Under the pieces are notes generated by a model, which saw only the letters and a program-made list of their open reading frames with translations, had not been told where the DNA came from and made no database searches. From Chloroflexota bacterium (GTDB lineage: Bacteria > Chloroflexota > Anaerolineae > Promineifilales > Promineifilaceae): a stretch of 32,292 nucleotides of DNA. Of the stretch, positions 24,845-30,583 are shown one piece after another (the first letter of the stretch is position 1; each line of letters starts with the position of its first letter). The stretch is from NCBI GenBank assembly GCA_020629055.1, contig JAHDEB010000001.1, positions 72,761-105,052 of the forward strand. The letters are read 5' to 3'. The position numbers and the translations under genes were made by a program.

Positions 24845-26023
24845 ATGAAAAACAAGTTTATACTTGGATTGTGTTTAACTGCGTTTGCAGTATTCCTCGT
24901 AGCCTGTGGTGGCGATGCGGGGCAAGCTGTTGCTGATCTTCAAGCAACCGTATCAGACCTAGAGAGCCAACTTGCTGATGCTAAATCAATGGCAGCCGAT
25001 GCAGAAGCTAAACTAGAAGACGCGATGAGCATGGCTGAAGAAGCTGGCGATGGTGCTGCAATGGCATCTGCTGACACTTTGGCTGCTGTTCAAGATCGTG
25101 GCATTTTGAAATGTGGTGTTCCAGCTGGTGTTTCACCTGGATTTGGTTTCATCGAAGAAGATGGTTCTTACACCGGTTTCGACTATGACTACTGCCGCGT
25201 TATCGCTGCAGCGGTTCTAGGTGATGCTGACGCTGTAGAAGTTCGCCCAACAACTGGTACCGAGCGCTTCCCAGTTTTGCAATCAGGTGAAATTGACATG
25301 CTTTCTCGTCAAACCACTTGGACAATCAGCCGTGACACCGCTCTAGGTTTCAACTTTGTTGCTACAACCTATTATGACGGTCAAGGTATGATGGTTCGTG
25401 CAGACTCTGGTATCGAATCACTCGAAGGTCTAGACGGCGGTACCGTTTGTGTTGCTGCTGGTACAACCACAGAAAAGAACTTGGCTGACGTATTCCGTCA
25501 ACTAGGTATCGCATACGAAGCTGTTGTATTCGACGAGCCAGATGCTCCTCGTTCAACCTATGATGAAGGCCGTTGTGATGGCTGGACCACTGACAAATCA
25601 GGTTTGGTTTCAGGTCTAGTTCAAATGAACGACCCATCAGAACACGTGATCTTGGCTGAAACCATGTCAAAAGAGCCTCTTGGCCCACTTGTACGTCATG
25701 GCGACGACAACTGGTTCGACATCGTACAATGGTCAACCCTTTGTACAATGGAAGCTGAAGAGCTTGGTGTGACATCAGCTAACGTTGATGAAATGCTTGG
25801 CAGCGACAATCCAAAAATCTTGAACATGCTAGGTGTTGAAGGTGACTTGGGTCAAGCTCTAGGCTTGAACAATGATTTCTGTTATCAAATTATCAAACAA
25901 ATGGGTAACTACGAAGAAATCTACAACAAAAACCTTGGCCCAGATACGCCATTCAACCTCGCTCGCGGTGTGAACTCACTGTGGACCGAAGGTGGTTTGC
26001 TGTACTCTCCGCCATTCCGTTAA
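24845..26023 (+). CDS. aapJ: General amino-acid ABC transporter substrate-binding lipoprotein (AapJ/BztA-like)
   Basis: This is a 392-residue extracytoplasmic binding protein for amino acids, feeding the two permeases downstream. Residues 1-20 are a lipoprotein signal with lipobox LVAC (Cys21). Residues about 27-68 form an Ala/Leu/Glu heptad-like helix (LQATVSDLESQLADAKSM), predicted to be a coiled coil between the anchor and the binding domain, which is unusual for the family. The binding domain starts near 80 (VQDRGILKCGV). Lobe I includes GTERFPVLQSGEIDML. Lobe II (about 180-285) includes TVCVAAGTTTEKNL and carries Cys202 and Cys244, likely a disulfide. AGGAG lies 9 nt before the ATG. The gene almost lacks CGGCCG sites and uses uniform codons (GCT, GGT), consistent with high expression. 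Confidence 0.93.
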   Translation: MKNKFILGLCLTAFAVFLVACGGDAGQAVADLQATVSDLESQLADAKSMAADAEAKLEDAMSMAEEAGDGAAMASADTLAAVQDRGILKCGVPAGVSPGFGFIEEDGSYTGFDYDYCRVIAAAVLGDADAVEVRPTTGTERFPVLQSGEIDMLSRQTTWTISRDTALGFNFVATTYYDGQGMMVRADSGIESLEGLDGGTVCVAAGTTTEKNLADVFRQLGIAYEAVVFDEPDAPRSTYDEGRCDGWTTDKSGLVSGLVQMNDPSEHVILAETMSKEPLGPLVRHGDDNWFDIVQWSTLCTMEAEELGVTSANVDEMLGSDNPKILNMLGVEGDLGQALGLNNDFCYQIIKQMGNYEEIYNKNLGPDTPFNLARGVNSLWTEGGLLYSPPFR

Positions 26024-26210: not shown

Positions 26211-27842
26211 ATGGCTCAAATATCGGCCGATCCTCCACCCTCATCTGATACTCAAAAAAATATATTAAGTACGGTCATCTCTAGTATTTTCGACGTACGC
26301 GTTTTAGGTGTGTTGGGGCAAATCGCTTTTATTGTCTTAGTGGTCCTCGGGTTTCGCGCCATTTTTGCGAACTTTGGCGACAATGTTGAAAAATTAGGTG
26401 AGGCTCAATTTATCTGTCGAGATGGTAGATTCGACTATCGATGCGCATATGACTTCATGGAAAATGAAGCAGGCTTTGATATTTCTGACCCGCCTCTTAC
26501 CTACGTCAATACTAATTCTTATTGGTACGCGCTATACCTTGGCTTTCTTAACACACTCCGTGTTGGTGTCTTGGGGGTTATATTTACAACTATTTTGGGG
26601 ACGCTTGCGGGGATTGCGCGACTTTCGACCAATTGGTTAATATCAAAGATCGCGCTTGCCTATGTTGAGATCATTCGGAATACCCCGGTGGTCATTCAGC
26701 TCTTCATTATTTACTTTGTCATCATTCTATCCTTGCCGAAAGTTGATGACGCACTTCAAGTTTTTAACCTACCAATCTTTTTGTCTAACCGTGGTTTAGC
26801 GATGGCATGGCCGCAGCTGATGAGCTCTTCTGCTGTCTGGATCGCTTTTCTTGTCCTCGGTGCCATTCAGTTTCAAGTTACTTGGATCTACTTGGCCCGA
26901 CAAGAAGAACGGACGGGTAAACCTACAAATCAATGGGGATGGGGCATATTCGGCTTTGTCGTTATTGCGATCATCGGATGGATTGTTGCGACCAATGTTG
27001 CAGATACCGAAGCGATGCTAACGCCAAAATCGTCTCTGATTCGTGAAGTTGATGGCATTTCAAAAGTCGTCGTTACAAAATCAGGTACGAACCACATTAG
27101 CGAGGTTCCACTACTGCCAGAAGATCAATTGGCTGAAGCTACACTAAATGTGTGTGTATTGCGCGATTCTAAGTCTGAACCAAACCTGACCCGCCAACTA
27201 AGAAGCCAAAAGGTTCCTTATAAAGTAATCCGTAAAGCAACGCCTGATAAAGCAACGACTGATTTGTTAGACGGCAAATGTACTGTCTTCGCCGCTTCTA
27301 AATCAATCTTAGCTGGTGAACTTGCGACGATTGAATCTCCTACAAGTTACAGATTATTATCGGTAGATGAGCAACCCGTTGTGTGGAGCGTCCCTCGTTT
27401 AGAAGGGTTTAACCTGGCGGGTGGACTTTCACTCTCGCCTGAGTTATTCGCCCTGCTAATCGGCTTGATCATATTTTATGGTGGCGGCCTAGCAGAGGTT
27501 GTTCGAGCAGGAATTTTATCGGTATCGAAAGGTCAAACAGAGGCTGCCCGAGCTCTTGGGCTGAACGAAGCCCAGCGATTAAATCTTATTGTGTTGCCCC
27601 AGGCTCTCAAGGTGATCATTCCTCCTCTTATTAGTACATACTTAAGCTTAATCAAGGACACAAGCCTTGGTTTGGCTGTTGGATTCCCTGACATGTATTT
27701 GATTTCACGAACAACGATGAATCAATCGGGTCGGGCATTGCAAATGATGATTGTCATTATGGCGTTCTATTTGTTAATTAGTTTGGTTTTCTCGCTGATC
27801 CTAAATTGGTACAACAGCAAGATTACCATGGTGGAGCGATAA
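26211..27842 (+). CDS. aapQ: Amino-acid ABC transporter permease (AapQ/BztB-like) with an inserted binding-protein-lobe domain
   Basis: This 543-residue permease is well above the roughly 400 usual for AapQ. TM segments are seen near 34-53, 110-135, 145-175, 205-225 and 243-263. The conserved ABC-permease C-terminal core starts at 408 (LSPELFALLIGLI...EVVRAG), with the EAA loop at 444-466 (EAARALG...VLPQAL). Between them, residues about 265-400 form a soluble insertion. Residues 313-383 align without gaps to lobe II of the binding protein encoded just upstream (offset 113): VCV, NL, Y, the GxC cysteine, S.L and a Pro all match, so Cys315/Cys357 parallel Cys202/Cys244. The first external loop (55-100) also has an extra Cys pair (Cys69/Cys78). 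AAGGAAGG precedes the ATG by 6 nt. Confidence 0.92.
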   Translation: MAQISADPPPSSDTQKNILSTVISSIFDVRVLGVLGQIAFIVLVVLGFRAIFANFGDNVEKLGEAQFICRDGRFDYRCAYDFMENEAGFDISDPPLTYVNTNSYWYALYLGFLNTLRVGVLGVIFTTILGTLAGIARLSTNWLISKIALAYVEIIRNTPVVIQLFIIYFVIILSLPKVDDALQVFNLPIFLSNRGLAMAWPQLMSSSAVWIAFLVLGAIQFQVTWIYLARQEERTGKPTNQWGWGIFGFVVIAIIGWIVATNVADTEAMLTPKSSLIREVDGISKVVVTKSGTNHISEVPLLPEDQLAEATLNVCVLRDSKSEPNLTRQLRSQKVPYKVIRKATPDKATTDLLDGKCTVFAASKSILAGELATIESPTSYRLLSVDEQPVVWSVPRLEGFNLAGGLSLSPELFALLIGLIIFYGGGLAEVVRAGILSVSKGQTEAARALGLNEAQRLNLIVLPQALKVIIPPLISTYLSLIKDTSLGLAVGFPDMYLISRTTMNQSGRALQMMIVIMAFYLLISLVFSLILNWYNSKITMVER

Positions 27843-27845
27843 ACA

Positions 27846-29606
27846 ATGGCTACAACTCTAAACCCCAATGAGTCGCTTAAGGATGAACAACGTTTTAAGC
27901 GCAGAAAAATAAATTGGAATTATTTCCTGCAAGACAACATCACCGGGTCAACTGGACTAACGGTGTGGATTGTATTTATGACGATTGTGAACTTATGGTT
28001 TTCGGTTCGTCAACTAGGTGCCGCCCCCGGCCGGACGATAGTCGTCTTAGCTGTTTGGGCAGCTTTAATTCTGATGGTTGTTGCGGGCGAGATGTTCGGC
28101 ATCCGTAGTCGAGTCAGCGAATGGTTAAAAAACAATCTGCTAACGTCAGTTTCGAATGCTTTGGTTACATTGTTTTTAATGTTATTACTGACAATGGCAT
28201 TTACAAGTTTCTGGCATTATGCGGTAACGACAGCAACTTGGACAGTTGCAGAGTCAAGTATTGATTTTCGTTCCGCCCAGGCTGAGGCTGGTGTAGAGAT
28301 CGGTGCAAGCTGGGGTGTGATCTGGGGATCGCGAAAGCTCCTTCTGACCGGTTTGCTCGAACCACAGTACAACGGCCGGGTTATTACATCTGCCATACTA
28401 ATCGGGGTCTTGTGGCTGCTGACATCGATTACAAATCGAGATAGGTTCGCCGAAAATAATGGCGTACAGATCCTGAAAAATATTACAAACATTGGCTGGT
28501 TGATTTCACCTTTTGCCCTCTATATATTGTTGGCCGGCATCGCATATGAAGGACCCTTTATTAATTTCTCAACTCTGATACGTTGGGAAATTGTGGTTCT
28601 TGCAATTTTTGGACTGTTATACTTTTTCAACGTATTGCAACTGACACCGCTCAATATCGCTATTTGGGTATTGGCGTGGCCCTTGGCTTATGTTATTTGG
28701 CGGTTCATAGGGCAAAATGGCTGGTATCCACCCATTAATGTTGACCAATGGGGCGGTTTGCTGCTAACAATTATTTTTGCGATTTTTGTTAACTTGGCAT
28801 CATTCCCGGTGGGTATTTTGCTTGCACTGGGCCGGCGTGCTGATGTGCAGGGTATTCCATGGTGGATTATTTGGCCCGTTACGCTGATCTTAACGACGAT
28901 ATTGTTATACACAAATACGTTCGGAAACTGTTTGGGGACAATCCCCGCTTTGTGTGAGAACACAAACTTGTGGGCAACTTCTCGAAATAATATTGAACGA
29001 GGGATTGCACTGTGGCCGCTCATCATCCCATTGTTGGCGTACTTGTTCCAGCGGATGTACAACGGCAATATGGTACAAGCTGCAAGCGTTGTGTTTATCG
29101 AATTTGTCCGCGGTGTACCATTGATTACGCTGCTGTTCTTAGCAATCGTTATGGCACCCTTCTTCCTTCCTGTTGACGGTTCTGGCTCATTCAAGAAAGT
29201 ATTTGCGGTAATGATCGGTTATACGATTTTCTCTGCCGCTTATATGGCCGAACTTATACGAGGTGGATTGCAGGCGATTCCGCGAGGACAATACGAGGCG
29301 GCAGATGCCTTAGGTATGAATGCGTTGCAGAAATACCGGTTTATTATTCTGCCCCAGGCTTTACGAATCCTGATTCCAGCTTTAGCAGGGTCGGTTATCG
29401 GTACATTCAAGTCATCATCATTGGTGTCATTGATTGGACTGTTTGACTTTGTGGGAATCGGCCGGGCTGTGTTCACCAACGATCAATGGCTTGGATTAAA
29501 AACAGAAGTTTATCTTTTCCTATTTATCGCTTATTTCCTAGTGAGCTCAATTGTGTCACTTTACAGCCGACGAATCGAAGAGAGTACGGGGCTGGGGATT
29601 CGTTAG
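27846..29606 (+). CDS. aapM: Amino-acid ABC transporter permease (AapM/BztC-like), enlarged
   Basis: This 586-residue partner permease starts 3 nt after the stop of the previous gene, with its GGAG (27833-27836) inside it, so translation is probably coupled. The conserved core is clear: ASFPVGILLALGRR (318-331), FIEFVRGVPLITLLF (417-431), AELIRGGLQAIPRG and the EAA loop EAADALGMNALQKYRFIILP (484-503). AapM/BztC proteins are typically about 380-430 residues. Here extra hydrophobic segments fill residues about 35-290. In addition, about 77 residues (337-413, with two TM segments and Cys362/Cys370) interrupt the stretch that normally joins LALGRR directly to the FIEFVRG helix. Together with the upstream permease it should form the heterodimeric channel. 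Confidence 0.92.
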   Translation: MATTLNPNESLKDEQRFKRRKINWNYFLQDNITGSTGLTVWIVFMTIVNLWFSVRQLGAAPGRTIVVLAVWAALILMVVAGEMFGIRSRVSEWLKNNLLTSVSNALVTLFLMLLLTMAFTSFWHYAVTTATWTVAESSIDFRSAQAEAGVEIGASWGVIWGSRKLLLTGLLEPQYNGRVITSAILIGVLWLLTSITNRDRFAENNGVQILKNITNIGWLISPFALYILLAGIAYEGPFINFSTLIRWEIVVLAIFGLLYFFNVLQLTPLNIAIWVLAWPLAYVIWRFIGQNGWYPPINVDQWGGLLLTIIFAIFVNLASFPVGILLALGRRADVQGIPWWIIWPVTLILTTILLYTNTFGNCLGTIPALCENTNLWATSRNNIERGIALWPLIIPLLAYLFQRMYNGNMVQAASVVFIEFVRGVPLITLLFLAIVMAPFFLPVDGSGSFKKVFAVMIGYTIFSAAYMAELIRGGLQAIPRGQYEAADALGMNALQKYRFIILPQALRILIPALAGSVIGTFKSSSLVSLIGLFDFVGIGRAVFTNDQWLGLKTEVYLFLFIAYFLVSSIVSLYSRRIEESTGLGIR

Positions 29607-29812: not shown

Positions 29813-30583
29813 ATGGATGTAATGCAAGGTCCAGAAGCAACAAAAACGAAAGAAGCCATCGTCTGTAAAGATGTGCATAAATGGTATGGGGAATTTGAAG
29901 CCTTAAAAGGGGTTGACCTAACGGTCGCATCCGGTGAGGTTGTGGTTATTCTGGGACCATCCGGTTCTGGGAAATCAACATTTATTCGCTGCATGAATCG
30001 TCTTGAAGAACATCAAGAAGGACGCATTATTATTGATGGGACTGAATTGACCCATGACGTGCGTAACATTAATGAGATCCGTCGCGAAGTCGGCATGGTG
30101 TTCCAACAGTTTAACCTGTTCCCACATTTAACTGTTTTGGACAATATTACGTTGGCACCGATTAACGTACGGAAATGGACACGAGAAAAAGCTGAAGATT
30201 TGGCGATGCTGTGGCTAAACCGTGTTGGTATCCCAGAACAGGCAGACAAGTACCCTGGCCAGCTATCTGGTGGTCAACAACAGCGTGTGGCGATTGCACG
30301 GGCATTAACCATGCAGCCGAAGATCTTGTTGTTTGACGAACCGACATCGGCCCTTGACCCTGAAATGATTTCAGAGGTATTAGACGTAATGCGTGACTTG
30401 GCAGAAGCGGGTTATACGATTGTGGCTGTTACCCATGAAATGGGTTTTGCGCGAGAAGTGGCCAAACGGATCATCTTTATGGATGGTGGACAAATCGTTG
30501 AGATTAACAGTCCAGAAAACTTCTTCAATAATCCAACGCATGAGCGGACAAAATTGTTCTTGTCTCAGATTTTAAATCACTAA
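29813..30583 (+). CDS. aapP: Amino-acid ABC transporter ATP-binding protein (AapP/GlnQ-like)
   Basis: This 256-residue cytoplasmic ATPase powers the transporter. All motifs are intact: Walker [10 protein letters not shown] (48-56), Q-loop [10 protein letters not shown] (about 96-105), ABC signature LSGGQ (151-155), Walker B ILLFDEP (171-177), D-loop SALDP and the switch His208 in VTHEMG. The [15 protein letters not shown] segment is characteristic of polar amino-acid transporters. It is the last gene of the operon, separated from the permeases by about 200 bp of structured leader, and ends at a strong terminator. Confidence 0.96.

Follow-up and report, generated by a model that had tools for sequence, protein, structure and literature searches.

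The window analysed here, a stretch of 32,292 nucleotides from a Chloroflexota bacterium, encodes an amino-acid ABC permease of the AapQ type (543 aa; 26211..27842, + strand) which carries part of a binding protein within its own membrane domain. Judged by pairwise and profile comparisons, its residues 264–395 constitute an insertion, located outside the cytoplasm, that shares ancestry with lobe II of the AapJ-type binding protein encoded in the same operon. Whole fused binding domains and periplasmic docking loops are known from other importers; what appears to be new is a single, apparently ligand-dead lobe in a permease loop, and no previous account of one binding-protein lobe placed within a permease loop turned up in a literature search with subscription journals mostly outside its coverage.

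Operon Context

The genes for an AapJ-type binding lipoprotein, the AapQ-type permease, an AapM-type permease, and an ATPase follow one another in this order on the + strand and make up an amino-acid ABC importer. The operon's own binding lipoprotein (392 aa; 24845..26023, +) carries the lipobox LVAC and matches PF00497 (SBP_bac_3, 1.6e-15), with 4z9n as its closest solved structure (1.3e-97). The lobe-bearing permease matches PF00528 (BPD_transp_1, 3.3e-15) and exceeds the cut-off of the NCBIfam model TIGR01726 (HEQRo_perm_3TM); both open reading frames, 24845-26023 and 26211-27842, are present as given in the initial annotation. Downstream follow the AapM-type partner permease, which is without an inserted lobe (586 aa; 27846..29606, +; PF00528, 5.1e-17), and the AapP-type ATPase (256 aa; 29813..30583, +), whose match to the NCBIfam GlnQ model (5e-96) lies under the equivalog cut-off. 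With a BPD_transp_1 domain and an EAA loop in the permease, and with a binding protein, a second permease, and an ATPase in its operon, the subunit has the features of an AapQ/HisM-type amino-acid permease. The operon logic is that of AapJQMP, the general L-amino-acid importer (PAAT family) of Alphaproteobacteria, and the identity to AapQ amounts to ≈ 40% over the membrane parts; AapQ from Azospirillum oryzae, with 385 aa, is without the lobe.

In the binding lipoprotein a stalk of 50–60 residues (24905-25070) links the lipobox to lobe I; it is coiled-coil- or alanine-zipper-like in character, where relatives have 'VEVTR'-type repeats instead. The permease itself holds a second, small insertion in its first extracytoplasmic loop, with a conserved cysteine pair of its own, Cys69 and Cys78 (CRDG..YRC; 26415-26444). 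This small insertion occurs in 33/33 permeases of the family-level group f1, to which the window belongs, and in none of the second lobe-bearing group, f46, or of the insert-less homologues; since the lobe-bearing f46 permeases do not have it, it is independent of the lobe. AapM is enlarged in both insert-bearing groups, with 513–875 aa as compared to 366–423 aa in insert-less operons, the extra length consisting mostly of membrane helices and varying in size. The enlarged forms are found at 27846-29606 of the window and at loci L076, L077, L079, and L084-L092, and in L076 the extra part resembles repeated helix units.

Position and Layout of the Insertion

The permease comprises 543 residues as compared to 388–471 in intact insert-less homologues of the same order and class, the longest of which include N-terminal extensions as called. 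Alignments with eight to nine insert-less AapQ homologues, all of them without the segment, place the extra length mainly at residues ≈ 264–395 (27000..27395, +), flanked by '..GWIVATN' and 'P.LEGFN..GG'. A single hydrophobic helix (402–433) lies between the insert and the EAA-type loop (residues 428–450; 27492..27560, +), which was assigned from its motif AEVVRAGILSVSKGQTEAARALG and from this hydrophobic stretch. In ABC permeases of this family the EAA loop is cytoplasmic and binds the ATPase. Because one membrane helix separates the insert from this loop, the deduced topology puts the insert on the extracytoplasmic side of the membrane, where its cysteine pair can therefore be oxidised.

The insert begins with the entry strand of lobe II (residues 264–279; 27000..27047, +), homologous to the hinge strand 'DGQGMMVRADSGIESL' of the binding protein; hhalign aligns positions 2–128 of the insert profile, and the two hinge strands compare as 'DGQGMMVR' in the binding protein and 'DTQGLLV.K' in the insert. 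Between this strand and the first core strand there is an extra helical stretch of at least 30 residues (≈ 280–310; 27048..27140, +) with no binding-protein counterpart, delimited by a gap in the hhalign alignment, by helices in the AF2 model, and by the alignment of the f46 inserts, in which it is longer. The lobe core (residues 313–385; 27147..27365, +) has the order beta-alpha-beta-alpha-beta-alpha according to sequence alignments and AF2, and corresponds at an offset of 113 to residues 200–272 of the binding protein. As the alignment reaches the entry strand, the whole of lobe II appears to be present, with the helical stretch added to it. In two f46 permeases (L086 and L089) the helical stretch holds a long Ala/Glu-rich low-complexity linker.

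Homology to Lobe II of the Binding Protein

Early on a gapless alignment of permease residues 313–383 with residues 200–270 of the binding protein, at an offset of 113, had been put forward, and BLASTP recovers it at 314–384 and 201–271, again gapless and at the same offset, with 25% identity and E = 2e-6 for a single comparison. The binding protein alone, used as query, also matches the inserts of seven further permeases, down to 1e-10. The homologous region of the binding protein is its lobe II (25370..25690, +; BLASTP and hhalign). Profile–profile comparison by hhalign gave E = 4e-16 over 96 columns with 18 family members, and E = 4e-17 with a score of 98 for 33 distinct f1 inserts against lobe II, while 30 column-shuffled control profiles scored at most 17.4. 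The insert profile scored 15 towards lobe I and 11 towards the C-terminal part of the binding protein, which is no match in either case; the insert is thus without lobe I and falls short of a complete two-lobed domain. In the genome of the organism itself (6.6 Mb), the insert profile has one further significant match only, which covers exactly lobe II of the operon's binding protein (E = 4.6e-8); the next best lies at 0.58. In the whole PDB, the only significant match is to residues 131–205 of 4z9n, that is, to its lobe II (E = 1e-7).

The Pfam model SBP_bac_3 matches neither the permease nor any of 18 inserts. Weak Pfam matches to DUF4154 (YfiR/HmsC) were returned for the region 27048-27365 in 8/18 inserts, the best at 0.0015. 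An identity with DUF4154 was rejected, as the PDB profile search gave 4z9n at 1e-7 and no YfiR structure up to E = 10; the weak matches are taken as a distant fold echo or as chance, and YfiR and the binding-protein lobe are possibly related at a distance.

The predicted structure points in the same direction as the profiles. Modelled alone by AF2, the insert has a core with pLDDT values of 81–90, its strands and helices in the expected order, and Foldseek places 4z9n, an AapJ-type protein, at the top (E = 9e-4, probability 1.00, TM (query) 0.51, rmsd 7.2 Å), and each of the top ten matches is either an amino-acid binding protein or a sensor derived from such proteins. The TM-score is just ≈ 0.5 because the ends of the insert are poorly modelled, and the claim of a lobe is therefore carried by the sequence evidence. 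According to the model, the insert has the fold of a binding-protein lobe, as the initial annotation had expected. The AF2 model of the full-length permease, with a pLDDT of 50, is too poor for placing the lobe. Profile comparisons, orthologue alignments, and predicted fold together uphold the original description of lobe II only, situated inside an extracytoplasmic permease loop and distinct from a terminal fusion.

Conserved and Lost Residues

A residue survey compared 42 distinct inserts with 41 neighbouring binding proteins. Both cysteines are invariant throughout (42/42 inserts and 41/41 binding proteins), Cys315 (codon 27153..27155, +) being the equivalent of Cys202 in the binding protein and Cys357 (codon 27279..27281, +) that of Cys244. 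The pairing proposed at the outset, 315/357 versus 202/244, thus stands as an equivalence, and the conserved cysteines argue for a Cys315–Cys357 disulfide in the insert. The asparagine N212 of the binding protein, N325 of the insert, is invariant in all 42 + 41 sequences, and E-x-N, G-x-C, Tyr239/352, Leu254/367, and His267/380 are largely common to both sets; the correspondence of VCV, E-x-N, Tyr, G-x-C, and both cysteines between the window's two proteins is as had been claimed.

The ligand face shows the opposite behavior. In the binding proteins G206, T207, T208, T209, T248, T249, and D250 are each found in 41/41 sequences, whereas the f1 inserts have at these seven positions mostly D/G/E, S/A, P/A/S, S, V/A, A, and S/P, respectively; 31/33 f1 inserts have Pro, Ala, or Ser at the equivalent of position 208, and the Asp equivalent to Asp250 is kept in 3/42 inserts as compared to 41/41 binding proteins. 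The ligand-contact motifs GTTT and TTD are replaced in nearly all of the 42 inserts. Judged by shared motifs and not by an alignment, Ser120, Thr121, and Gln122 of the LAO binding protein would correspond to T207–T209, and its Asp161 to D250. In LAO these four lobe-2 residues line the ligand site (PMC5740067, Table 3), and Ser363 of the permease (codon 27297..27299, +) occupies the position at which the binding protein has its ligand-binding Asp250, a role read from the equivalent Asp161 of LAO (PMC5740067). OccJ tolerates Asn at the position of this Asp, and its loss alone would therefore be no proof; it is because the whole ligand face is lost and lobe I is missing that binding of substrate by the insert itself is unlikely, and that the insert may be regarded as a ligand-dead lobe.

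The ligand-sensing option raised in the initial annotation is disfavoured by the same residues. The lobe might be conceived as a half-domain still able to sense or hold substrate, either by itself or together with lobe I supplied by the soluble protein, and the kept lobe fold as well as E323 and R341, invariant in all 33 f1 inserts, could be quoted in its favor; both residues, however, are not kept throughout the f46 inserts, and given that lobe I is absent and that nearly all inserts have exchanged the ligand-contact residues, such a half-domain is very improbable.

Comparison with Known Systems

The insert matches lobe II of 4z9n, an AapJ-type protein from Brucella ovis with glutathione bound, by sequence and predicted fold, and the two cysteines are common to both; it differs from 4z9n in consisting of one lobe, in the loss of ligand residues, in being embedded in a membrane protein, and in the extra helical stretch. 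Ionotropic glutamate receptors also interleave binding-protein lobe and membrane domain within one chain; there the pore interrupts a binding domain complete with both lobes, whereas here one lobe lies inside a transporter. In GlnP and OpuA the binding domains are attached at a terminus. For importers of this GlnP/OpuA type, two reports describe permeases of type I importers to which binding-protein sequence is linked covalently (PMC8025302, PMC11065425). There, complete ligand-binding domains are involved, in contrast to the insert described here, which is internal, single, and without the ligand residues, and which is accompanied by a separate, retained binding protein. The P2 loop of MalF has an unrelated fold that does not derive from a binding-protein lobe; like the insert, it is a domain outside the cytoplasm that is flanked by membrane helices within a single permease subunit. 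Movement of the MalF P2 loop around MalE has been described (PMC8134467), as have interactions between MalE and the periplasmic loops of MalFG (PMC8276074).

Distribution, Origin, and Selection

In a first search of 40 genomes, full-length permeases with the insert were found in 18, all of group f1, and one more was cut by a contig end. Among 396 genomes of the class, strong matches to the insert (E < 1e-18) fall in permeases of f1 and f46 only, and the weaker ones (≈ 1e-4 to 1e-13) in frames sized like stand-alone binding proteins; in a phylum-wide set of 301 genomes, none outside f1 reaches 1e-14. The search among Chloroflexota AapQ homologues, which the initial annotation had recommended, thus located the insertion in f1 and f46 only, two family-level groups of one Chloroflexota class, with other AapQ homologues seen without it. 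Named insert-bearing records are metagenome bins of Anaerolineae or Chloroflexi, including an Ardenticatenaceae bacterium and 'Candidatus Desulfolinea nitratireducens'. Matches were obtained in 2052 plasmid records, in none of which did they span 80% of the query. A misassembly or chimera was rejected, as the same organization is seen in 42 distinct permeases, which come from separate assemblies and belong to many genera.

Profile comparison of the f1 with the f46 inserts gives a match at 8e-32. On the membrane-domain tree, whose root is not fixed by an outgroup, permeases with and without the insert form the two sides of one branch; on the lobe tree, built from few columns and with long branches, inserts and binding proteins separate with one label change. 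Because of this separation, a recent duplication from the binding-protein gene of the window was rejected, and two independent gains are unneeded in view of the 8e-32 match and the single change which the membrane-domain tree requires. Taken at the level of sequence, an AapJ-type lobe was probably inserted once, in the common ancestor of the f1 and f46 permeases. In one f1 genome (G012, L027) AapQ is without the insert and falls on the tree among insert-less ones of other families, which suggests a replacement or a different lineage.

For pairs with usable synonymous divergence, dN/dS of the lobe is 0.10–0.23 versus 0.02–0.08 for the membrane parts, values based on small counts and with one near-identical pair being uninformative. 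These ratios indicate that the lobe is under purifying selection, although less constrained than the rest of the permease. That the insert diverges faster than the rest, and that insert-less homologues exist, could fit an evolutionary relic with little function; purifying selection, the invariance of the cysteines, and the persistence of the lobe in many genera of both family-level groups speak against this, and we find such a relic scarcely credible.

Possible Function

A separate binding-protein gene lies next to the permease gene in every insert-bearing operon with a readable upstream side. As the separate binding protein has been kept, the lobe would supplement it. We lean, slightly beyond even chances and by analogy, towards the lobe being a ligand-dead structural docking or gating module on the permease, with a role like that of MalF P2. 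A copy of an AapJ-type lobe II, comprising its central contiguous segment and the hinge strand, sits in an extracytoplasmic AapQ loop just before the EAA region, apparently through one ancestral insertion, and has lost its ligand-contact residues, with cysteine pair and scaffold kept. The lobe would form a disulfide-stabilised domain on the outer face of the permease, beside the gate where the binding protein docks; there it may contact and position the incoming binding lipoprotein and signal its arrival to the gate, as can be imagined by reference to MalF P2, while binding no substrate itself. Docking or gating is more economical than a competing role, because the separate binding protein is kept and the insert is predicted on the docking side. 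Against a need for such a module it has to be noted that insert-less AapQ homologues manage without the lobe.

The divergence of the insert bears on this reading and on its rivals. The divergence of the insert is roughly double that of lobe II in the binding protein itself; it tracks the divergence of the adjacent membrane helices (r = 0.76 by distance correlation), and the same approach revealed no signal of co-evolution between insert and binding protein beyond that of the membrane domain (partial r about -0.2 to 0.04). Owing to this fast divergence and to the lack of tracking of the binding protein, the case for a tight and conserved docking surface is weaker than expected. The link to the adjacent helices is also what an assembly or stability domain might produce, namely a brace between AapQ and the enlarged AapM with no direct role towards the binding protein, and it is in both insert-bearing groups that AapM is enlarged too (see above). 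The enlargement, however, is mostly made up of membrane helices and varies in size, and the coincidence may be lineage history only, such that a brace seems rather unlikely to us.

Alternatively, the lobe could act as a decoy or autoinhibitory element, which mimics lobe II and holds the docking site of the permease until it is driven out by binding protein carrying its ligand; futile ATP hydrolysis would then not be set off while the binding protein is empty or scarce. The origin of the lobe from one that meets the permease in related importers, its predicted location on the docking side of the membrane, and a kept scaffold with a lost ligand face would all suit a decoy, but a lobe that diverges fast, and does so without tracking the binding protein, does not, and we hold this alternative to be improbable as well. 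A more daring proposal is that the lobe was exapted as a permanent, ligand-dead 'pseudo-binding-protein', which would keep half of the docking site occupied or shaped, with gating made dependent on exchange with the separate binding protein. We offer this tentatively, as a possibility with the odds against it; if true, it would represent a new way to couple a binding protein to an ABC importer.

The lobe is invisible to Pfam and is missed by domain annotation; similar lobes may hide in other permeases. The permeases of these two Chloroflexota groups offer, as an experiment of nature, a way to see what such a lobe contributes to an importer beyond substrate binding, be it docking, signalling, or gating.
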